DNA from: Verrucomicrobiota bacterium | GTDB lineage: Bacteria; Verrucomicrobiota; Verrucomicrobiia; Limisphaerales; J093 | NCBI GenBank assembly: GCA_012517065.1 | Contig: JAAYVR010000173.1 | Coordinates: forward strand, 1-50,391 | DNA length: 50,391 bases | Direction of reading: 5' to 3' | Shown: positions 3,686 through 50,391 of the stretch, piece by piece | How positions within the stretch are numbered: the stretch's first letter is position 1 | Layout of the letters: every line of letters begins with the position of its first letter | The notes under the pieces: model-generated | Databases searched by the model: none | Seen by the model: the letters and a program-made list of their open reading frames with translations, nothing else | What the model was told of the DNA's origin: nothing | Position numbers and translations under genes: made by a program

Positions 3686-3750
3686 CCCCAAAAACTCACC
3701 GCCTGACCAGACCAAGACACCCAAAGCTTCATTCCGGTGAGATTTCCGGG
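3686..3750 (+). repeat. 65-bp palindromic repeat, copy 1
   Basis: The element starts at the base after the shc stop codon. The right arm CGGTGAGATTTCCGGG is intact; the left arm is eroded (CCCCAAAAACTCACCG). The asymmetric interior (CCTGACCAGACCAAGACACC and following) matches the other five copies. It could also act as a transcription terminator or mRNA-end stabiliser for shc. Confidence 0.85.
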
Positions 3751-4049
3751 TTGAAGTTCCAAAGTTCCGCGTTTACGCGGAAATGAGATAACTGTCTGTC
3801 GCACCGCCAGCACGCCACCGACGGCGTGCCCAGCCATTTATGGAATCGTGCGTAAGCCAGGGCGGGCGCTCCTAACACAATACAAACATCGTGCCTGTCC
3901 CCATATCGGGATGACGCCGAGAACAGAGTGTCTGTCCCCATGTCGGCATCCGAGTGGGTCCTCCACAGACTCCCGCAAGCGCGGATTAGACAAGGGGCAA
4001 TTTGCGGGCCACACCGCAATCCGGGGGCAAGACCCAGACCACGAGCCTG
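3751..4049. repeat. Mosaic intergenic repeat block (shc / rhamnosidase spacer)
   Basis: No gene is seen here. The block holds a TTCCGCGTTTACGCGGAA palindrome also found, diverged, near 36385 and 42765. It then has two minus-oriented signature copies, at about 3890-3905 (CGTGCCTGTCCCCATAT) and 3928-3943 (GTGTCTGTCCCCATGT). A copy of the spacer module present at 7560, 12420, 22810, 36530 and 40130 follows. The module's terminal GTGACAGGCTCG supplies the TGA stop of the rhamnosidase gene. Confidence 0.8.
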
Positions 4050-6431
4050 TCACTGTTTCCGCGGCTCGGGGATAATGTTCCGGCCAGGCTTGAGGGATTG
4101 GGTTTGACCGGAAGGCAGGATGGCGGTGGCGTTGACTCGATCAGGGATTTCGGTTTCCAAGCGGAACTCGCCGTCCTGCACGCGCCAGCACGAAACAACA
4201 CGCCCTGCAGGCGTGATCAGCGATGCTTCAGCGTGGTCGAGCGGGCCGGGGTTTGGACCGATAACAATGTTCTTCCACCCCACAGTGCCCGGCTGCTGTC
4301 GGATGCCCGCCACATAGGCGTAGAACCACTCCATTGCATGGCCCAGCATGCAATGGTTGAGCGATTGGTAGCCGTCCATCATTGCATCCCATGTTTCTGG
4401 CAACGAGGTCAGCCCTTTCTTGAGGATACCGCCATAGCTGCCCAGCCCGTCACGGCTGTACACGCGATGGAGCACATCGGACCGGCCGGCTTCTGCGAGG
4501 GCTCGAATGAAATAGACATGGCCGACATCGCCGGGTGTTTGTTGCCAGCCGCGCCTTTCCAAATCGGCAATGATGTCTGCCACAAGCGTCGCGCGGTCGG
4601 CAGCGGGCACCAAATCGGCGCATAGTGCCATTGCATTGGCGCACTGCGGACTGCCGAGGTGTTTCAGTTTGCCAGTGGCCGGGTCGCGATAGTGTCGTTG
4701 GAAATCTTTGGCGATGCTCGCGTGAAGTTCTCGATATCGCCGGGCGTCATCCGGAAGGCCGAGAGCTTCGGCGGCGCGGGACACGGTTCGGGCGCACAGC
4801 GCCCATGTAGCGGTGGCCGACAACTGTGTTGGAGTGAATCGGGAGGGGCCGGGCGGCTGCCCGTGGCCGTAGTCGTACCAATCACCCAATCCTTCCGGTG
4901 CGAGACCGTCTTTGGCCTCCGTTCGGATGTAGTCCACAAACCGGCGCATCATGTCGAAGTTTTCCCGCAGGACGCGCAGGTCTCCGGTCCATTCATACTG
5001 ATGCCATGGGAGCATCACGGATGCAGCGCCCCACTCGACTGTCCAGTTGAATGCCCCTGGGAACCGGCCGGCAGGATAACTGGGTGCGACGGTTAACACG
5101 CGGCCGCTTGGTTCCTGCGCGTCGCGGATGTCACGGAGGATTTTGTCGAACCAGTCCCGGCAGTCATAGCGGTACTGAAATGACGGCGCCAGGAGATAGG
5201 CGCATTCGAGCCAGCCCAGTTTTTCCCGATGCGGACAATCGGTGAGGACGTGACTGGTGTTGGCGCGCATGGCCCAATCAATCAACCGATGCGTGCGGTT
5301 CAAAAGGTCGCTTGACGATACGAAGGTGCCGGCCTCCGGCAGTGCTGTGCGGACGTGGACAAGCTCGATTGCTCGAACGACGGGCAGGTTTTTGGGATTG
5401 GGTGCATCCGGTGGGACGGCGCCAGTGACCTCCACAAACTGCATGCCAAGGTAAAACGAAATCCACTGGTGAGATTGCTCTCGGCCATCGGTGACAAATT
5501 CGCATCCGACCACGTAGCCCCCGAAAAGCCGGTCGCGGTCGTTCTTATGTTCGCCGCATTTGAAAGTAATCCGATCACCCGGTTTTCCGCCTGCCAGTTC
5601 GAAGCGCAGTTGCGCCGAACAGTTTTGCCTGAAGCTGTAAAGATACACGCCCGGTGCTGGCTCTTTGACCGACTCGGGTGTGAACCGCTCGTGAGCGCGG
5701 AAAGGAGGCCAATGTTGCCGCGTCAGAGCTGCGCCGGGGGGGTTAACGGCACGCGCTCTCTGCCAGCCGCTGTCGTCGAACCCAACATCGTCCCAGCCGG
5801 TAGGATGCTGGCGGGCGTCGAAATCTTCACCTGCATAAATGTGCGAGAAAAGGATTGGGCCTGGGGCGCATCGCCACGAGTCATCAGTGCCAACTCGCTG
5901 GACTGTGCCATCAGGGAACTTCAGAACGATCTCGGCGCAGAGCAGCAAAGGTTCTGCGGCTGTGCGCTGCGGGCCATCTTTGTTGTAGCGGCCCTGAGGT
6001 GGATTCGGGTTGTGCCAGAATGAATTGGCAAGCATCACGCCCACGCAGTTGGTGCCGATGTGAATCTGGCGGGTGACATCGAAATCGCGGAAGTAGATCG
6101 TGTCTTCGTATTGTGACCATGGCTGATTGATTCCGGTGTCCGCAAGGCGCCGTCCGTTGAGGCGCGGGTCATAATCGCCCAAACCAATGATGCGCAGAAT
6201 CGCGATGTGGGGCTGTGTGTCCACAGTGAACTCCTTGCGGAACAAGGGCAACCGCACGAGCGGGTCGGGAGTTGCAGGGGGCGCAATCCATCGAGCCGCG
6301 ACAAAAGGGCTCACCGCGCTGATCTCATCGTCTGCGGGAGTGGTTCGGGTTTGTTTAGTCTCCGCCGATAAGGCCAAGAAGACGGCGAGCGCTGAGGCGC
6401 TTGTGGTGAGAAATCGGGTTAGCATGTTCAT
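4050..6431 (-). CDS. Secreted alpha-L-rhamnosidase (GH78 family)
   Basis: The protein is about 793 residues and is predicted to release terminal alpha-L-rhamnose from plant or microbial glycosides outside the cytoplasm. The order is: signal peptide (MLTRFLTTSASALAVFLALSA), N-terminal beta-sandwich regions with the family segment SFRQNCSAQLRFEL, then the (alpha/alpha)6 barrel containing TDCPHREKLGW near residue 395. That segment corresponds to the GH78 signature DCPxRxxLGW, which carries catalytic acidic residues. Further family motifs are WTVEWGAASVMLPW, GLGDWYDYG and LPETWDAMMDGYQSLNH. A C-terminal beta domain (IVIGPNPGPLDHAEASL) closes the protein. ATG 6431 or 6425 gives a better signal peptide than the upstream TTG. 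The gene ends inside a mosaic repeat that provides its TGA. No transporter or rhamnose catabolic genes adjoin it. Confidence 0.93.
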   Translation of the reverse strand: MNMLTRFLTTSASALAVFLALSAETKQTRTTPADDEISAVSPFVAARWIAPPATPDPLVRLPLFRKEFTVDTQPHIAILRIIGLGDYDPRLNGRRLADTGINQPWSQYEDTIYFRDFDVTRQIHIGTNCVGVMLANSFWHNPNPPQGRYNKDGPQRTAAEPLLLCAEIVLKFPDGTVQRVGTDDSWRCAPGPILFSHIYAGEDFDARQHPTGWDDVGFDDSGWQRARAVNPPGAALTRQHWPPFRAHERFTPESVKEPAPGVYLYSFRQNCSAQLRFELAGGKPGDRITFKCGEHKNDRDRLFGGYVVGCEFVTDGREQSHQWISFYLGMQFVEVTGAVPPDAPNPKNLPVVRAIELVHVRTALPEAGTFVSSSDLLNRTHRLIDWAMRANTSHVLTDCPHREKLGWLECAYLLAPSFQYRYDCRDWFDKILRDIRDAQEPSGRVLTVAPSYPAGRFPGAFNWTVEWGAASVMLPWHQYEWTGDLRVLRENFDMMRRFVDYIRTEAKDGLAPEGLGDWYDYGHGQPPGPSRFTPTQLSATATWALCARTVSRAAEALGLPDDARRYRELHASIAKDFQRHYRDPATGKLKHLGSPQCANAMALCADLVPAADRATLVADIIADLERRGWQQTPGDVGHVYFIRALAEAGRSDVLHRVYSRDGLGSYGGILKKGLTSLPETWDAMMDGYQSLNHCMLGHAMEWFYAYVAGIRQQPGTVGWKNIVIGPNPGPLDHAEASLITPAGRVVSCWRVQDGEFRLETEIPDRVNATAILPSGQTQSLKPGRNIIPEPRKQ

Positions 6432-7170: not shown

Positions 7171-7439
7171 AAACAATTATCGTTTGCCGTATTTATGTCC
7201 CAGGAATGGGGTATATGCAAGTGTTGGCGCGCGTATTTTGGGCTCTCATGCATCCGTCGAATAGCGCGCCTGAGAATTTCTGTGCATGGGACCGGATTCG
7301 CCGCGCACTTCCGCAATCATGTATCGAAAAACGGATCATCTGCAGGGGAAACAGAGACCATCGGCAATAGACCTGAGACGTGTGATCTGAAACCTGAGAC
7401 AAGGGCAGGGGGCGATCGCCGGCGGCCAGTGGTCCAACG
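7171..7439. other. Upstream region of ferritin gene, nothing recognised
   Basis: This non-coding spacer presumably carries the ferritin promoter on the minus strand. I could not assign -35/-10 boxes or a Fur-box-like palindrome with confidence. Confidence 0.3.
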
Positions 7440-7970
7440 CCGCTCCAGCGCCACCGCGTGCTCTGGCAAACAGATGCGTCGGCAAATGAATTGATTGAGT
7501 AGATACGGCCTGCCACCCACGCACATCCAACAAAGAAGCAAATAGAGTGACAGGCTCGTTGTCAGGGTCTTGCATCCGGATTGCGGCATTGCCTGCAGGT
7601 TGTCCCTTGTTCCAATCGCCGGGGGCCGAAGTCTGTTGGGGGAACCCCTCCGATGCCCATATGGGGACAGACACGTTGTTTGCGGCGTCATGCCGATATG
7701 GTTCCAGGCACGTTGTTTGCGCCTTGAGAGAAAGCGGCAGCGAGCTGCCGCACTCCAAGCGCTTCGCGCCTACGAGCGCCCACTGCATCCGCGGCAGCGC
7801 GTGAAGAACAATCGGGATCAGCGCGCTGTTCCTTGCGATGGGATCCGGTGGATATTTCGCAGCCTGGCTTGGCTCATAGCCCCGAGCAGGGGGCGCAGGA
7901 GCCTGGGGGCTGCCTGTCAGGCAAGTTTGGTTTCGACTGCGCCGGGCCGCGAAATATGCGGGGTGAAAGT
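7440..7970. repeat. Composite mosaic repeat block (ferritin / flavodiiron spacer)
   Basis: From left to right it holds four parts. (1) About 7440-7555 is the inverse of the module at about 42890-43000 (shared CAATCAATTCATTTGCCG and CTGTCACTCTATTTGC). (2) 7547-7690 carries GTGACAGGCTCGTTG, then TTGTCCCTTGTTCCAATC, then ATGGGGACAGACACGTTGTT at 7661-7680. (3) About 7722-7850 is the 130-bp module (AGCTGCCGCACTCCAAGCG). (4) 7851-7962 is the 108-bp inverted-end module, opening GATATTTCGCAGCC and closing CGAAATATGCGG. No gene is supported here. Confidence 0.85.
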
Positions 7971-12031: not shown

Positions 12032-12103
12032 ACTCGCCCGGTGTCAGCCCGTCAGCAGCTTTTTGGCGAGGACCGGGGTGGCCGCGGTGCGGCCTCATTT
12101 TGG

Positions 12104-12168
12104 CCCGGAAATCGCACTGTTTGACCATACCGAGACACACAAACCTTGATTCTGGCGAGATTCCCGGG
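12104..12168 (+). repeat. 65-bp palindromic repeat, copy 2
   Basis: The arms are CCCGGAAATCGCACTG (12104-12119) and the partner ending TGGCGAGATTCCCGGG (12168), with a few mismatches. The interior (TTTGACCATACCGAGACACA and following) aligns with the other copies. It lies 72 bp downstream of lptE and continues into a module (12169-12232) whose inverse precedes copy 4 at 23550-23609. Confidence 0.8.
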
Positions 12169-12901
12169 GCCCGCACATTCCTTGGTTTCTTGAAGGCACC
12201 CGTTTCGCGGACTGCTCAGGGCATATCGTTATGTTGAAAGGTCCTTCGTATTCGCGAGGTTTTTCAGGCTGCGAGTTTGGTCACTTTCTCCGTATCCGCT
12301 TCTCTGGCTGCCAGTAAGGCGGTCACAACAACACGGCCTTTGGGAGTGAGTCGGAATAGGGTGACAGGCTCATTGTTTGGTTGTGGACCCAAATAGAGGG
12401 ACAGGCACGTTGTTTGGGTTTTGTCCCCTGATTGTGGCGTGGCCTGCGAATTGTCCCTTGTTCCAATCCGCTGTTGCCGAAGTCTGTGGAGGAACCCATC
12501 GGATGCGGATATGGGGACAGACACATCGTTTTGGGCGTCACGCCGATATGGGGACAGACACGTTGTTTGGGTGTAGAGACAAAGCGGCGGCAAGCTGCCG
12601 CACTGCAAGCGCTTCGCGCCTACCAGCGCCCACTGGATCCGCTGCAGCGCGTGTGAAACCATTGGGATCAGCGCGCTCTTCCTTGCGACGGAGTCGCGAG
12701 GCGTATCTCCCAAGGCGGTGGGGCTGACAGCCCGAGCGGGTGCAAGGGCAGGGGCGCTGCCCGTGGGGCAACTTTGGTTTTGACTACGCCGGGCTGGGAA
12801 ATATGCGGGCGAGCGAGGCCGGGTGACTGCTGAGAGGAGCAATCACTCGCTGATTATAATGGTGCCGAATCTCTGGTGGGGCTTAGCAGGAGCCTCGCCA
12901 A
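12169..12901. repeat. Composite mosaic repeat block (lptE / aminotransferase spacer)
   Basis: 12169-12232 is shared, inverted, with 23550-23609 (CACCCGTTTCGC...GACTGCTCAGGG). A possible gene remnant lies at 12264-12356. From 12357 come GTGACAGGCTCATTG, AAATAGAGGGACAGGCACG at 12391-12409, the TTGTCCCTTGTTCCAATC module, and two signature copies at about 12509-12530 and 12545-12570. The 130-bp module (about 12575-12700) and the 108-bp inverted-end module (about 12701-12809) follow. 12823-12901 shows nothing. No intact gene is supported. Confidence 0.82.
12264..12356 (-). pseudogene. C-terminal remnant of a lost gene (winged-helix-like tail)
   Basis: On the minus strand this reads RLTPKGRVVVTALLAAREAD and continues TEKVTKLAA before a stop at 12264. 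It looks like a genuine protein tail of the LTPxG-R-xVxALLAAR type. The frame runs upstream directly into the repeat module GTGACAGGCTCATTG, so the 5' part of the gene is missing. It may have been replaced by the repeat insertion. The parent family is not identified. Confidence 0.35.
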
Positions 12902-15849: not shown

Positions 15850-16274
15850 CTTATGTCAACTCTTGGAGTGGTTTGTCGGACATCGGCCGCGGCATGGGTG
15901 AATGCCTTCAACGCCTGCTGTTGCAGGGCTAGAATCCAGTTGGCCTGTCTTTTCAAGTAATAATGCCGAATTGCGCGGGGCAACGCCACCTCGTTTTGCC
16001 TCCTGCACCCCGCGGCCGGTCGAGGTCCGATGATTTGCATTTTCTCCGGCGTACAAGAATCGTCGCGCTTTTTTTAGCGGGTTGGAAAAGAGAAAGGGGG
16101 TCGGGAGCGAGGCCGTCTCCGGCCGTATCGACCTGACGCCCTATCTCTGGACCGATTTCGAGCAAGCAAAGTGTGACGACCGCATGTTGACCGCTTGGGA
16201 GCGCAAACTACGTGTCTGTCCCCACATGGGTTCCCGGAATGGCGCCCTGAATGGCAATGCTGCTATTGCAACGG
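15850..16274. other. Spacer between phosphohexomutase and feoB 3' end
   Basis: No gene is supported. A single short signature copy lies at about 16209-16225 (CGTGTCTGTCCCCACAT). The region should contain the promoter of the phosphohexomutase gene (minus strand) and the end of the feo transcript, but no clear hairpin with a T-run was found. Confidence 0.4.
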
Positions 16275-19226: not shown

Positions 19227-19291
19227 CCCGGAAACCACTCCGCCTTACCAGTCAGAGACAACCAAAGCCCCATTTCTGTGAGATTTCCGTG
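19227..19291 (+). repeat. 65-bp palindromic repeat, copy 3
   Basis: The left arm is CCCGGAAACCACTCCG; the right arm ends TGAGATTTCCGTGG. The interior is diverged (CCTTACCAGTCAGAGACAAC). It sits upstream of both the feo operon (minus) and the CPBP gene (plus), so copies are not restricted to gene 3' ends. It is preceded by CTAA, as in copies at 3686 and 42629. Confidence 0.72.
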
Positions 19292-19606
19292 GGCCTGCAT
19301 GTTTCGCAGCCCGGCGGGGCCGGAACCAAAGTCGCCTGACGGGCAGCGCCCCCGGCCCTTGCACCCCGCGGACGTTCAGACACGCCGGGCTGGGAAATAT
19401 GCCACGCGACTCCGTCGCAAGGAAGAGCGCGCTGATCCCAATGGTTTCGCACGCGCTGCGGCGGATGCAATGGGCGTTGGCAGGCGCGAAGCGCTTGGAG
19501 TGCGGCAGCTTGCTGCCGCTTTGTTACCAGGCGCAACCAACGTGCCTGGAACCGGATCGGCATGAAGCCGCAAACAACGTGTCTGTCCCCATATCGGCCA
19601 CGCTGG
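19292..19606 (-). repeat. Composite mosaic repeat block (feo / CPBP spacer), inverted
   Basis: This is the reverse-complement order of the 7722-7962 and 36670-36907 blocks. The 108-bp inverted-end module occupies about 19296-19404 (CATGTTTCGCAGCCCGGC ... GCCGGGCTGGGAAATATG). The 130-bp module follows at about 19405-19535 (CTTCCTTGCGACGGAGTCGC on the minus strand). Then come CCAACGTGCCTGGAACC and a signature copy at 19577-19597 (CGTGTCTGTCCCCATATCGG). 19607-19668 shows nothing. Confidence 0.82.
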
Positions 19607-22789: not shown

Positions 22790-22945
22790 GTCCCCGATAA
22801 AGTGACAGGCTCGTTGTTTGGGTTTCGCCCCCGGATTGCGGCATGGCTGGCGAATTGTCCTTTGTTGCAATCGGCGGCTGCCGAAGTCTGTGGGGAACCC
22901 ATCGCATGCTGATATGGGGACAGACACGTTGTTTCTGGTGCGGGA
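22790..22945 (+). repeat. Mosaic repeat block downstream of tsaB
   Basis: It contains GTGACAGGCTCGTTGTTTGG (22801-22820), the spacer module with GGATTGCGGCATGGC, and a GCAATCGGCGGCTGCCGAAG stretch. A signature copy GGGGACAGACACGTTGTTT lies at about 22916-22934. It has the same order as 7547-7690, 12357-12530 and 40112-40245, but the 130-bp and 108-bp modules are absent here. Confidence 0.8.
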
Positions 22946-23609: not shown

Positions 23610-23674
23610 CCCGGAAATCTCACCGGAATGAAGCTTTGGGTGTCTTGAGCTGGTCAAACGGTGAGATTTCCGGG
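23610..23674 (-). repeat. 65-bp palindromic repeat, copy 4 (best conserved)
   Basis: It has perfect 16-bp inverted ends: CCCGGAAATCTCACCG (23610-23625) and CGGTGAGATTTCCGGG (23659-23674), around a 33-bp asymmetric interior. It abuts the hypB stop codon (complement CTA at 23675-23677). It can fold into a strong hairpin and may serve as the terminator of the fumarase-hyp operon. Confidence 0.9.
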
Positions 23675-24526
23675 CTAGCGGATGGGACGAACGCGCGAGG
23701 AAAGGAAATCCAGCCACGCACTCATTCCCTCGCCGGTCTTGGCTGAGAGTTCGAAAATGACGGCGTGGTGGCTGATTTTGCGGAGGTTTGCAATTGCGTT
23801 TTCGCGGTTCCAGCCAGCCGCGGCTGCGAGGTCGGATTTTGTTATTAGAGCGACATTGGCAGAGTGGAAGAGGGGAGGGTACTTGAGCGGTTTGTCTTCG
23901 CCCTCGGTTACTGAGAGAAGGACCACGCGCAGGTTTTCCCCGAGATCGTATGCTGCGGGGCAGACAAGGTTCCCGACGTTTTCAATTATGAGCAGGTCGA
24001 TCGAATCGAGGTCGAGCTTGGCACATGCCTGCTCGATCATGGCGGCGTCGAGGTGACACACTGTGCCGGTGTTGACCTGCACCGCGGGTATGTTTGCTGC
24101 GCGGAGGCGGGCGGCGTCGTTGTCGGTGGCAAGGTCGCCTACTATGACACCGGTCCTGAATCGTCCTGAACTCGCAAGGGCTGTTTGCTGGATGAGTGTT
24201 GTCTTGCCCGAGCCGGGGGAGGAGAGGACGTTGATGACGAACACTCCTTTTGCGCGGAAGAAACCTCTGTTGCGTTCGGCGATCCTCTCGTTCTTGGTCA
24301 GGAGCGACCTGTTCAGCTCGACGACTTGCCGTTTGCTCTGGTCAGAGTCGTGGAGGGTTGAATCCGCGTGATCGTGGTGATGCGGAGGTTGATGCGGGTG
24401 GTCGTGCGGCTCATCGCCATGATGATCTGTACTGGGCACAGCCGTTCCGTGAGCGGTGTCACCCGCTCCGGGTTGGGGGACCGCTTGTTTGCTTTCGCCT
24501 AATCCACATCCGCATTCCGTACACAT
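23675..24526 (-). CDS. hypB: Hydrogenase nickel incorporation GTPase HypB
   Basis: This 283-residue G3E-family GTPase inserts nickel into [NiFe]-hydrogenase, and in some species into urease. It starts with MCTECGCG, the N-terminal CxxCGC nickel motif. A histidine-rich stretch follows at about residues 34-60 (HHGDEPHDHPHQPPHHHDH), suited to nickel storage. The P-loop LSSPGSGKTTL begins near residue 101, followed by GVIVGDLATDNDAARL and a CHLDAAM metal site. The start at 24526 is fixed by MCTxCGC; the frame is open further upstream. One base separates it from the hypA stop. It is the last gene of a fumarase-hypA-hypB series; no hydrogenase structural gene is in the window. Confidence 0.94.
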   Translation of the reverse strand: MCTECGCGLGESKQAVPQPGAGDTAHGTAVPSTDHHGDEPHDHPHQPPHHHDHADSTLHDSDQSKRQVVELNRSLLTKNERIAERNRGFFRAKGVFVINVLSSPGSGKTTLIQQTALASSGRFRTGVIVGDLATDNDAARLRAANIPAVQVNTGTVCHLDAAMIEQACAKLDLDSIDLLIIENVGNLVCPAAYDLGENLRVVLLSVTEGEDKPLKYPPLFHSANVALITKSDLAAAAGWNRENAIANLRKISHHAVIFELSAKTGEGMSAWLDFLSSRVRPIR

Positions 24527-27949: not shown

Positions 27950-28014
27950 CCCGGAAACCTCAGCGCCTGACCAGACCAAGTCACCCAAAGCTTCATTCCG
28001 GTGAGGTTTCCGGG
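27950..28014 (+). repeat. 65-bp palindromic repeat, copy 5
   Basis: The arms CCCGGAAACCTCAGCG (27950-27965) and CGGTGAGGTTTCCGGG (27999-28014) match with one compensated change (AACC/GGTT instead of AATC/GATT). The interior CCTGACCAGACCAAGTCACC is nearly identical to copy 1. The compensatory base pair suggests that the folded form matters. It lies 56 bp upstream of thiD. Confidence 0.88.
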
Positions 28015-28070
28015 TTCGGATGATCCAAAGCTGGACTTTGATCTGCGTGAAAATACTCTCGCTTGGAAAG

Positions 28071-30069: not shown

Positions 30070-30102
30070 AACCCGGATATGGGGACAGACACATAGTTTC
30101 TG
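30070..30102 (+). repeat. Short dispersed signature copy
   Basis: CGGATATGGGGACAGACACA is followed by TAGTTT, matching 36604-36630 in the TAGTTT variant. It marks the start of the mqnC-thiC repeat region. Confidence 0.7.
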
Positions 30103-30111
30103 CCTCCCAAA

Positions 30112-30409
30112 CCGGTGAACCGTGGGGCTCCGGGTTTTCGTGATCGAAACCGGTGCGAGATTGGTCGTCGGGTTGATGCGGCCGAGGACGGCCGCGCTCC
30201 CGACGCGATCGCTTCGTCCAATGCGTTGGCAGGAGCGCGGGCATTCTTGCCCGCCCCCAGCCGGTGAACGTTCGGGAATCGGATCCGCGTGAGTGAAACT
30301 GGTGTACGATCGGTCGCCGGGTTGATGCGGCCGAGGACGGCCGCGCTCCCGACGCGATCGCTTCGTCCAATGCGTTGGCTGGAGCGCGGTGATTTTTCCG
30401 CGCGCGTTG
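30112..30409 (+). repeat. Tandem pair of 149-bp direct repeats
   Basis: Two units (about 30112-30260 and 30261-30409) are in register at 149 bp. The core GGGTTGATGCGGCCGAGGAC through CCAATGCGTTGGC (30169-30230 and 30318-30379) is essentially identical, while the first half of each unit (ACCGGTGAACC / GCCGGTGAACG) is diverged. It contains GCGGCCG..CGGCCGC self-complementary stretches. No coding function is evident. Confidence 0.85.
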
Positions 30410-36307: not shown

Positions 36308-36910
36308 CGAAAGGCGGGACTCTAACCGCCGTGGGCGCAGCATCGCCCGATGTGCCGAACAACCTATCGCCGTTCGAGTTCGGCGTTTACGCAGAAATGA
36401 GAAGACTGTCTGTCACAGCTACTGAGCGCCAACGACCGCACCCCTGCCGCCCATGCAACCTTGCATGAGGCAGGGCGGGCGCTCCGCGCACACCACAAAC
36501 ACTGTGTCTGTCCCCATATCTGCCCCCGAATTGCGGCATGGCCGGCGAAATGTCCCTTGTTCCAATCGGCGACTGCAGAAGTTTGCGGAGGCCCCCTCGG
36601 ATGCCGATATGGGGACAGACACATAGTTTTCGGCCTCATGCCGATATGGTTCCAGGGACGTTGTTTGCGCCCGGAAAGAAAGCGGCAGCAAGCTGCCGCA
36701 CTCCAAGCGCTTCGCGCCTACCAACGCCCAGTGCATCCGCGGCAGCGCGTGAAATACCATTGGGATCAGCGCGCTCTTCCTTGCGACGGAGTCGCAGGGC
36801 ATATTTCGCAGCCCGGCGTGGCTGACAGCCACAGGGGGGCAAGAGCCGGGGGGCGTTGCCCGTCAGGCGACTTCGGTTCCGGCCACGCCGGACTGGGAAA
36901 TCTGCGGATA
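36308..36910. repeat. Composite mosaic repeat block, most complete example
   Basis: The order is as follows. GGCGGGACTCTAACC module at 36313-36419 (shared with 42695-42808). GAAGACTGTCTGTCAC, then GGGCGGGCGCTCC (shared with 3860 and 42865). Signature (minus) at 36501-36517. Spacer module with TGTCCCTTGTTCCAATCGGC. Signature (plus) at 36606-36626. GTTCCAGGGACGTTG. 130-bp module at about 36670-36798. 108-bp inverted-end module at about 36799-36907. No intact gene is supported; small frames here are shared among copies but change frame between them. Confidence 0.85.
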
Positions 36911-40111: not shown

Positions 40112-40400
40112 AGACTCGGCTCGTTGTTTGGGTATTGTCCCCTGATTACGGCGTGGCCCGCAAATTGCCCCTTGTTCCAATCCGCGGCTGCCGAAGTCTG
40201 CGGAGGAACACCTCGGATGCAGATATGGGGACAGACACTTTGTTTGCCGCGTGCGCTGAGCGCCCGCCCTGGCTTACGCACGATTATATGAACTGCAGGG
40301 AGCGACACCCTTCCTTGGCGCCCTGCCTTGGTGCCGGAGCTGTGACAGATAGTTTTCTCATTTCCGCGTACGCCGGGCTGGGAAACATGCTGACCAGCGT
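40112..40400 (+). repeat. Mosaic repeat block downstream of argC
   Basis: It contains GGCTCGTTGTTTGGGTATTG, the spacer module (TTGTTCCAATCCGCGGCTGC), a signature copy at 40223-40243 (ATGGGGACAGACACTTTG), and a GCGCCCGCCCTGGCTTACG stretch. The right arm of the 108-bp module closes it (ACGCCGGGCTGGGAAACATG, 40368-40389). The two parts that usually sit between are missing, so this copy is an internal deletion or an independent assembly. 40401-40426 precedes the helicase stop codon. Confidence 0.78.
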
Positions 40401-42628: not shown

Positions 42629-42693
42629 CCCTGAAATCTCACCGGCCACACTTTCGGATATACCCATGCCTTTACTCCGGTGAGATTTCCGGG
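42629..42693 (+). repeat. 65-bp palindromic repeat, copy 6
   Basis: The arms CCCTGAAATCTCACCG and CGGTGAGATTTCCGGG (42678-42693) pair with one mismatch. The interior is the most diverged (GCCACACTTTCGGATATACC). It is preceded by CTAA, lies 49 bp upstream of the helicase start, and its right end runs directly into the GGCGGGACTCTAACC module. Confidence 0.85.
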
Positions 42694-43123
42694 CTAAAGG
42701 CGGGACTCTAACCTGCCGCGGGCGTAGCATCGCCCAAAGTACGGTACGACCGATCGCCGTTAAACTTCCGCGTTTTCGCGGAACCGAGAACACTGTCTGT
42801 CACACCTCAGGGGTGCTGAGGACGGCGCCTTGGCGTTCACGGAATCGTGCGTGAGGCACAGCGGGCGCTCCGCGCACACCACAAACAACGTGTCTGTCAC
42901 TCTATTTGCGTCTTTTTTGGCTGTGCGTCGGTGGCAAGCGGCATGCGCTGAATCAATTCATTTGCCGGTGCATTCGTTTGCAAATGGTGGAAGTGGCCGC
43001 GGATCGGCCGTGCCTTTGCGTGGCGAACAAGAGCATCGAGTGACTGCCTGTCAGGCAACTTTGGTTCCAGCTACGCCGGGATGCGAAACATGTGGGCTAA
43101 GTGATATTGATTTGGCTGGCGGC
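42694..43123. repeat. Composite mosaic repeat block (helicase / DUF192 spacer)
   Basis: The order is: GGCGGGACTCTAACC module (42695-42808, shared with 36308-36419), GTCTGTCACACC, then GGCGCTCCGCGCACACC (shared with 36478-36497). Next are CAACGTGTCTGTCACTCTAT (42888-42907) and the module shared in inverse with 7440-7555 (CTGAATCAATTCATTTGCCG). The block ends with the right arm of the 108-bp module (GGTTCCAGCTACGCCGGGAT, 43063-43082). No gene is supported before the DUF192 start. Confidence 0.8.
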
Positions 43124-45337: not shown

Positions 45338-45459
45338 AAGCTAGCTGCTTGGTAAGGAGATGGTTCGCAGCGTAACCCTCGACCGAACATCGAGCCTGTC
45401 ACTCTATTTGTTCCGCGAACAGCATCCCCCCCGCCAACCGCCACACTGGTTCTCAGCAC
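45338..45459. other. Spacer after nadE
   Basis: It contains GAGCCTGTCACTCTATTTG at 45395-45413, a variant of the dispersed signature, and otherwise nothing recognised. Confidence 0.4.
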
Positions 45460-45546
45460 AAATATCGTGTCTGTCCCTCTATTTGGGCGTGACATCGTGC
45501 AACACGCCCCGGGGGTCAAACGAGGCCGGGTGTCAGCGAGGCGGCA
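45460..45546 (-). repeat. 87-bp RAYT-linked element, second copy
   Basis: This is the inverse of the element at 50004-50090: AAATATCGTGTCTGTCCCTC, then TATTTGGGC, CGTGCAACACGCCCCGGGGG, TCAAACGAGGCC and TGTCAGCGAG in matching order. It is 4.5 kb from the transposase start and in opposite orientation. Confidence 0.85.
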
Positions 45547-49496: not shown

Positions 49497-50003
49497 CGAG
49501 TTTTCCTCTCGCCTCTGCGCTTCAACCGGCCATTGTCGCGCAGCCCCCGATGGTGCAACGAGCCTGTCTTTCTGCTGACACTACTGTGCGCAAATAAACG
49601 CAATCTGCTTCACCTCATCTACCATGAAATTTCGAAAGACTTACCGTGTTCGCATCACTATTGATTGGCTGACCTTTTGAAGGTTGTGCCAGATGACCGC
49701 CGGCATGGGGCCTTCAAGCCGTTGGTTAGACGGCTCTATAACGCCGGGGTCACGGCTGTGGTTCTAGGCAAAAGCGGGGTGTGGCCGGCCAAAGCTCATT
49801 GCTTAGGTTCGCTCCTTTACTCCGGTGCGGTTCGCGGAAAGTACGCTCAAAGCCGCGTTGGTTACGGCAAGAAGACGCGCCGTTCCCCGTGTAATCCTGC
49901 ACGAAAACTCGTTAATTGAAGGGCTGATGTCCCAGGGATTCTCCCTGAGGGGGACTGCAACGGTGACAGACTACTCCAATAAAGCCCCGCACTTCACCAG
50001 GCA
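49497..50003. other. Non-coding or unrecognised spacer before the RAYT
   Basis: An 84-codon frame from a TTG at 49665 to 49919 exists but has no recognisable motif or ribosome-binding site. I do not call it a gene. The sequence may hold a transposon end, structured RNA or gene debris; no hairpin with a T-run was found. Confidence 0.3.
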
Positions 50004-50090
50004 ACCTCGCTGACACCTTGGCCCCGTTTGACTCCCGGAGCGTGTTGTGCGATTTTACCTCAAATAGAGGGACAGACACGGTATTTGGGC
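50004..50090 (+). repeat. 87-bp element upstream of the RAYT
   Basis: It contains ACCTCGCTGACACC, GGCCCCGTTTGACTCCCGG, CGTGTTGTGCG, AAATAGAGGGACAGACACG and GTATTTGGGC. The last part is the AGGGACAGACAC form of the dispersed signature. It lies 110 bp before the transposase start, where a REP cognate of a RAYT is expected. Confidence 0.85.
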
Positions 50091-50200
50091 GCCCCGGGTT
50101 CCGACCCGGACCCGCCCGAGCAGTTGGCCAATGGGAGGCACGGCTGCGTGCCTGTCGCTCTGTTGCAAGGAGAACAACAAGACAAATCAAGGAGGTTGTA
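50091..50200. promoter_or_regulatory. RAYT leader with strong ribosome-binding site
   Basis: AAGGAGGT at 50189-50196 is a near-perfect Shine-Dalgarno sequence 4-5 bases before ATG 50201 and supports translation of the transposase. A GTGCCTGTCGCTCTGTTGCA stretch at about 50150-50168 is another diverged signature copy. Confidence 0.7.
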
Positions 50201-50391
50201 ATGAGACTGCCCAGAATCAAACTTCAGGGTAAAACCGTGGTCTATCACTGCATGTCCAGAATCGTCGGCAAGGAGCATCTGCTGGATCAACTGTGCAAAT
50301 ACAAGCTCGAGGGATTGATCAAGCGGCTGTGCCGGTTCTGCGGTATCGAGCTGGTGAGCCACTGTGTGATGAGCAATCATTTTCACATACT
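50201..50391 (+). CDS. REP-associated tyrosine transposase (Y1/IS200-like HUH), 3' truncated by window edge
   Basis: The first 63 codons read MRLPRIKLQGKTVVYHCMSR, then IVGKEHLLD, CRFCGIELVSHCVMSNHFHI. The opening VYHCMSRI and the HUH motif in MSNHFHI (H-x-H metal site) identify a Y1 transposase of the RAYT group; the catalytic tyrosine lies beyond the window. RAYTs are single-copy, domesticated IS200/IS605 relatives that nick and possibly spread REP palindromes. No terminal IS200 structure is visible on the left side. An upstream 87-bp element and the wider signature family are the likely substrates. Confidence 0.88.
   Translation, partial: MRLPRIKLQGKTVVYHCMSRIVGKEHLLDQLCKYKLEGLIKRLCRFCGIELVSHCVMSNHFHI

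Follow-up and report, generated by a model that had tools for sequence, protein, structure and literature searches.

A multi-copy RAYT-type transposase gene and a genus-restricted repeat signature in a Verrucomicrobiota genome

The stretch of DNA analysed here (the window) is a whole contig, C20, of 50391 bp, from a MAG-like Verrucomicrobiota genome (G000) of 5.26 Mb in 298 contigs. At its right edge lies the beginning of a transposase gene, cut by the contig end. A previous model-made reading of the letters (the sequence-only reading) placed the start of a Y1/HUH transposase at 50201, and this holds: the 63-residue fragment matches the Pfam Y1_Tnp model PF01797 with 23.6 bits (cut-off 23) and carries the HUH motif as NHFH. 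The 87-bp element described in two inverted copies is equally real. The stretches 50004-50090 (+) and 45460-45546 (-) are identical in 71 of 92 aligned columns, with a local score of 102; the best other place in the window reaches 44, and shuffled queries do not exceed 30. With one mismatch allowed, the motif GGGACAGACAC has 18 hits in the window, where 0.84 are expected and the shuffle maximum is 4. The window contains the following features:

49823 to 50020, plus strand: upstream module common to most, not all, left ends, at ∼70-85% identity, more diverged than the left end itself (BLAST of 49600-50030 and alignment).
50021 to 50091, plus strand: left end (LE) of the RAYT unit, GCCCCGTTTGACTCCCGGAG...CAAATAGAGGGACAGACACGGTATTTGGGCG, conserved in all aligned left ends.
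50069 to 50085, plus strand: signature GKGACAGRCWCGNTRTT inside the left end, with 723 copies in the genome and none of the reversed control pattern.
50201 to 50389, plus strand: Y1/HUH (RAYT-type) transposase, N-terminal 63 codons with NHFH, cut by the contig end; PF01797 match, at least 40 copies of the region.
45386 to 45526, minus strand: short gene-free derivative, LE 45526 to 45455 plus a right-end-like GGAACAAATAGAGTGACAGGCTCGATGTT 45414 to 45386, matching the left and right ends of the RAYT unit.
12353 to 12571, plus strand: family-B signature array with signatures at 12361, 12398, 12514 and 12551, within an 806-bp block that the collinear locus of the sister species G001 does not have.
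22794 to 22933, plus strand: family-B unit (signature, 115-bp module, signature, in direct orientation), also present in G001.
7539 to 7721, plus strand: family-B signature array, in a region where G001 differs.
3885 to 4061, minus strand: family-B signature array; G001 has 261 unrelated bp without signature at the same place.
36491 to 36669, both strands: family-B signatures, 36514 on the minus strand, 36612 and a variant at 36641 on the plus strand (signature scan).
40118 to 40248, plus strand: family-B unit whose left signature is decayed (signature scan).
19573 to 19597, minus strand: family-B signature and adjoining module (signature scan).
42884 to 42908, minus strand: single signature CAAATAGAGTGACAGACACGTTGTTTG (signature scan).
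30074 to 30098, plus strand: single signature that abuts the 149-nt tandem repeat of a second RAYT (signature scan).

The window also holds a separate 67-bp repeat with palindromic ends, CCCGGAAATCTCACCGG...CCGGTGAGATTTCCGG, at 3686-3752, 12104-12170, 19227-19293, 23610-23680, 27950-28016 and 42629-42695; G001, although collinear at that locus, does not have the copy at 27950.

A search of the same genome with the last 401 bases shows that the final ∼400 bp of the window is present in at least 40 copies at 91-96% identity, and every scored copy of this edge region lies at a contig end or within ∼100 bp of one. A second search, with a full-length relative (P0002, locus L048), finds the N-terminal pieces again and adds ∼30 C-terminal pieces, mostly at contig ends. 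This pile-up at contig ends indicates that the contigs break off within a gene present in many copies. N-terminal pieces reach at most 89 codons, and the most extended C-terminal piece begins near residue 181 of the relative. No contig of the assembly carries the whole unit: roughly residues 90-180 of the genome's own protein are absent, and an intact gene was not seen. Because the edge segment recurs at least 40 times and is matched by ∼30 right halves, the 87-bp element can be assigned to a RAYT-bearing unit of high copy number, of which it forms the left end.

The aligned left ends agree from GCC(C/T)CGTTTGACTCCCGGAG through CAAATAGAGGGACAGACACG.TATTTGG. Most share the further, more diverged upstream module, so that the left boundary is ragged; three left ends (L016, L025 and L071) have unrelated DNA upstream and start at GCC(C/T)CGTTTGAC. 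On the right, 266 bp after the stop codon, lies R1, AACAAATAGAGTGACAGACACGATATTG, followed ∼126 bp further on (about +392) by R2, GCAAATAGAGTGACAGACACGATATT, which is missing at L064 and L076. The right boundary is common up to ...CGATATT and then gives way to unique DNA in 18 of 20 aligned right ends. Right ends carry the LE signature in direct orientation (AAATAGAGTGACAGACACGATATT), and in the 20 right ends scanned the LE, R1 and R2 signatures are all co-oriented.

Shortened versions of the unit are also found. Copies at C78 and C83 have an internal deletion that fuses codon ∼8 to codon ∼267, with both ends kept. The 45.4-kb copy of the window shares only the left end of the longer unit as its 87-bp element and runs on to the right-end-like signature; it is a short derivative with one left and one right end, a spacer of ∼45 bp and a signature-to-signature distance of 75 bp (right signature at 45402-45386, minus strand). 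Searched with up to two mismatches, the LE pattern occurs 58 times in the genome. About 16 of these copies lie in contig interiors, for the most part as short or solitary left ends. Two left ends (L138 at G000:C248 and L141 at C90) lie shortly downstream of the same tRNA-like 3′ end, GGTTTCGTAAACC...CCACTGGCTCCA, a setting that suggests a duplicated tRNA-adjacent stretch.

The protein belongs to the Y1 transposases but has unusual proportions. A longer copy of its own at C40 matches PF01797 with 35.1 bits, and the profile match to ISDra2 TnpA (2xm3; E 8e-4) covers the Y1 catalytic core. The tyrosine motif YIDLN(P/A) is found in the relatives L048, G006 and G026, and the matching segment of the genome's own protein falls in the assembly gap. 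HUH and tyrosine are separated by 114-116 residues in P0002 and G006 and by 113 in an Alteromonadales protein (L262), compared with 60 in an ordinary RAYT at C169. The C-terminal domain is conserved and alignable to L048, G006 and G026. The RAYT model NF047646, whose curated cut-off is 80 bits, gives relatives of the edge protein 59-62 bits (E 1e-16 to 1e-17); P0002 is 25-30% identical to Alteromonadales plasmid proteins, and the edge-gene product is 87-89% identical to the RAYT of the sister species G001. Judged by the wide spacing in relatives and the conserved C-terminal domain, the edge protein is a long RAYT relative, and the RAYT of the full unit is probably ∼320-340 aa in length.

Most of the signatures scattered through the window sit in a second module family (B) that lacks the 87-bp left end. 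The sequence-only reading had suggested the element as the source of these signatures: the signature is indeed shared, but the element cannot be named as the source of every one, because most lie in family B, which is tied to the RAYT through the shared signature only. The arrangement of the signatures was studied in 450 kb sampled from the genome, with 20 stretches of 20 kb drawn for the purpose. The 450 kb hold 78 signature sites, 30 of them within long ORFs where 61 are expected. Signature neighbours less than 400 bp apart are always head to tail (33 of 33, none inverted), and 22 of the 33 pairs are spaced 115-119 bp. The 22 units with this spacing align as CAAATAGAGTGACAGGCTCG...∼100 bp...GATATGGGGACAGACACGTTGTTTG, with differing flanks. 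Among 158 distinct sites, the DNA upstream of the signature falls into a few clusters, as does the DNA downstream, and the two are combined in varying pairs: the same upstream cluster occurs with different downstream clusters, and the reverse, so modules switch partners at the signature. Family-B modules outnumber RAYT left ends and have no transposase gene of their own. The shared signature and the shared genus restriction suggest that the same RAYT may move them. Other Y1 genes considered as the partner of family B were rejected: the RAYT at C169 has an unrelated, signature-free repeat of 149 nt on its flanks, and at C124 no signature was found either.

These repeats are not REPs. No GTAG/GTGG foot was seen beside the signature in the ends examined, and close neighbours are not paired in inverse orientation. 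Folding found no stable hairpin from a single signature site, single sites being weak except R1 (z-score -3.4); the signature as a strong hairpin was thus discarded, save for R1 and a rare inverted dimer. This dimer (L143 870-980, at G000:C274:34374) is perfect, with ∼25-bp arms, a 10-nt loop and a fold z-score of -8.9, and its edges coincide exactly with a break in synteny with G001. A literature search by sequence motif returned nothing relevant.

The same genome offers an internal contrast. The RAYT at C169 (L042 1162-1887) is apparently single-copy, scores 84 bits with NF047646 (cut-off 80) and is flanked on both sides by a 149-nt repeat (L042 395-1043 and 1930-2365) without the signature. 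This tandem repeat is also found in the window, at 30106-30403 and 16055-16203. The C169 gene and its 149-nt repeats are a REPtron-like pair of the usual pattern, one RAYT with one repeat.

The signature was compared across 58 relatives including G000, among which G001 alone belongs to the same genus. Counts of GKGACAGRCWCGNTRTT are 723 in G000, 76 in G001 and at most one in each of the 56 others; the reversed control gives 0. Two genomes of other genera carry RAYTs in many copies: 66 matches, ∼62% identical, in the family member G006, and 38, ∼45% identical, in G026, both without the signature. The confinement of the signature to the genus, and its absence beside the G006 and G026 RAYTs, fits a cognate pair and makes the link specific to this RAYT. 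In G006 and G026, covariation of RAYT and repeat is known only as the absence of the G000 signature. The sequence-only reading had named two cases that would break the link: relatives with the same repeats and no RAYT, of which none was found among the relatives examined, and a RAYT flanked by unrelated repeats. G006 does have another upstream motif, but its RAYT is a different one (62% identical), so the link is not broken. What stands of the earlier idea of a cognate substrate is that the element belongs to this RAYT, as the left end of ∼40 RAYT units with a genus-restricted signature; its casting as a classical REPtron does not. Upstream of the RAYT start, G006 (L151-L160) and G026 (L161-L167) have A+T-rich motifs that end in TTGAC(A), are sometimes tandem and may double as a -35 element. 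A common downstream end of the G006 or G026 copies was looked for and not found.

The sister species G001 is 90-92% identical to, and collinear with, much of the window, which makes site differences visible. The 806 bp at 12084-12889, with four signatures, correspond to 85 unrelated bp in G001, and the blocks 3750-4042 and 7229-7815 also differ. Opposite the deletion copy at C78:23023, the collinear G001 locus lacks a unit and holds 141 unrelated bp ending in an inverse signature variant. A solitary LE at C286:35602 is missing from the collinear G001 locus, with its right edge exactly after ...GGGACAGACACGTTGTTTGT; both genomes have the C248 element (L138 and L169). In L256, L134 and L258, at sites with units in one species only, there is a third variant of the signature, AAATAGAGTGCCAGGCTCG, single and in inverse orientation. 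The right edges of the empty sites are sharp and the left edges are not. Neither a target-site duplication nor a target consensus or conserved tetranucleotide was found in empty sites and right-end flanks, and a clean target-site logic was abandoned on these grounds. Signature orientation relative to GC skew, a test for lagging-strand bias, gives p 0.056 (Fisher) and p 0.14 (binomial). The comparison of the two genomes thus shows gain, loss or rearrangement, but it does not reveal the chemistry.

Several known systems resemble parts of this one. RAYTs are described as mostly single-copy, as not copying themselves and as showing no sign of their own mobility (PMC8266576, PMC8049555). REPtrons and REPIN-RAYT systems of E. 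coli and Pseudomonas likewise combine an HUH Y1 protein with genome-specific dispersed non-autonomous repeats, but theirs is a mostly single-copy RAYT with GTAG-footed palindromes and inverted REP pairs, none of which is seen here: gene copies are numerous, single-site folding is weak, and the L143 dimer is the one inverted pair beside the uniformly direct close neighbours. TIRYTs/TIRtrons have a RAYT-like gene with inverted terminal repeats that hold GGGGWSAS, in moderately abundant families (Di Nocera et al. 2013, PMC3733652). The likeness lies in a RAYT-like gene between long terminal repeats that are not GTAG REPs, in end-repeat families dispersed in the genome, and in GGGGWSAS itself, which fits the family-B GGGGACAG and of which the RAYT-unit GAGGGACAG / GAGTGACAG is a variant. 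TIRtron ends, however, are inverted and their abundance is moderate, whereas here the end signatures are direct, all pointing the same way in the 20 scanned right ends, with hundreds of repeats and at least 40 genes.

Besides TIRYTs/TIRtrons, the closest known kind is TnpA-Y1 subclass 2.3: ∼325 aa, multi-copy (mean 3.9), reported mainly from Chromatiales and Alteromonadales, with no REP-like repeats found (Quentin et al. 2018, PMC6006769). Shared features are a probable length near 325 aa, the long HUH-Tyr insertion and the Y-xDLN motif as seen in the relatives (spacing 113-116), the C-terminal extension and the multi-copy state. The present case differs in its host phylum, Verrucomicrobiota, in having NHFH where subclass 2.3 has NHYH, in copy numbers in the tens and in clear cognate repeats. 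IS200/IS605 elements (IS608, ISDra2) share the Y1 catalytic core and ends in direct orientation, but the protein here is more than twice as long, and no strong subterminal hairpins were found and no target tetranucleotide was identified. The system thus joins a protein like those of subclass 2.3, present in tens of copies, with ends in direct repeat and with cognate repeats by the hundred.

The best explanation, to which we give a probability of roughly 0.7, is that the edge gene is part of a mobile Y1 (HUH) transposon, of the RAYT/TnpA-REP class, which has risen to many copies here, and that the RAYT cuts at the signature and carries gene-free units along. The unit would run from the left end, GCCCCGTTTGAC...CAAATAGAGGGACAGACACG.TATTTGG, through the RAYT gene, R1 and R2 to a terminus in ...GACAGACACGATATT, with all signatures on the same strand as in IS200/IS605 ends. 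The transposase would recognise the signature on single-stranded DNA and cut immediately on its 3′ side, and the segment lying between two cuts of this kind would be transferred to a position 3′ of another target. Units without a gene may be mobilised in trans and so accumulate head to tail as mosaics. We infer transposition itself from what is directly seen: unit anatomy, copy number, deleted and gene-free derivatives, a signature confined to the genus and sites that differ between sister species. Repeats of this kind could also be moved by gene conversion or recombination.

Such processes are central to an unlikely alternative, in which the repeats are of host type and owe their spread to homologous recombination, to gene conversion or to some other transposase, while the RAYT units inserted in the signature or acquired it as a preferred target. 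The numerical excess of transposase-less family-B modules over RAYT left ends is consistent with this, as are the coincidence of repeat edges with synteny breaks and the other, older repeat that adjoins most LE copies. Against it speak the confinement of the signature to the genus with this RAYT, its presence at the ends of RAYT units, deletion copies and short derivatives alike, and the switching of module partners at this point. Markedly less probable still is the proposal of the sequence-only reading, a classical REPtron with a domesticated, essentially single RAYT and adjoining REP/REPIN substrates. The RAYT-class protein, the genus-restricted cognate repeats beside the gene and the one perfect inverted dimer at L143 would suit it, but the gene is present in at least 40 copies with direct end signatures, foot and stable single-site hairpin were not seen, inverted close neighbours number 0 of 33 in the sample, and the apparently single-copy RAYT at C169, with its own 149-nt repeats, stands as a contrast within this genome. 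We give least credence of all to an artefact of binning or assembly, in which RAYT contig ends derive from mixed strains. A MAG-like assembly in 298 contigs with each scored copy at a contig end invites this suspicion, yet nearly every copy has its own flanks, the contamination estimate is 0.03%, and many of the matches in G006 and G026 lie inside contigs with long open frames.

Returning to the mobile RAYT unit, a class usually described as single-copy seems here to spread both itself and a large repeat family. The genus is a counter-example to single-copy RAYTs and to a repeat-less subclass 2.3, with the same signature at either end of 40 or more gene-carrying units and in gene-free modules by the hundred, but not in related genera, and the high copy number of the units explains why metagenome assemblies break at these genes. 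A more speculative extension, which we consider possible but would not bet on, is that a short non-palindromic signature serves as the universal 3′ terminus of a self-copying RAYT, with single-strand modules joined 3′ of other signatures to give head-to-tail mosaics. If true, this would add a third mode of repeat assembly to those of inverted REPINs and of TIR elements, in the hands of a RAYT class described as repeat-less. The system offers a defined substrate for experiments and shows how a RAYT-type gene can still act as a transposon.
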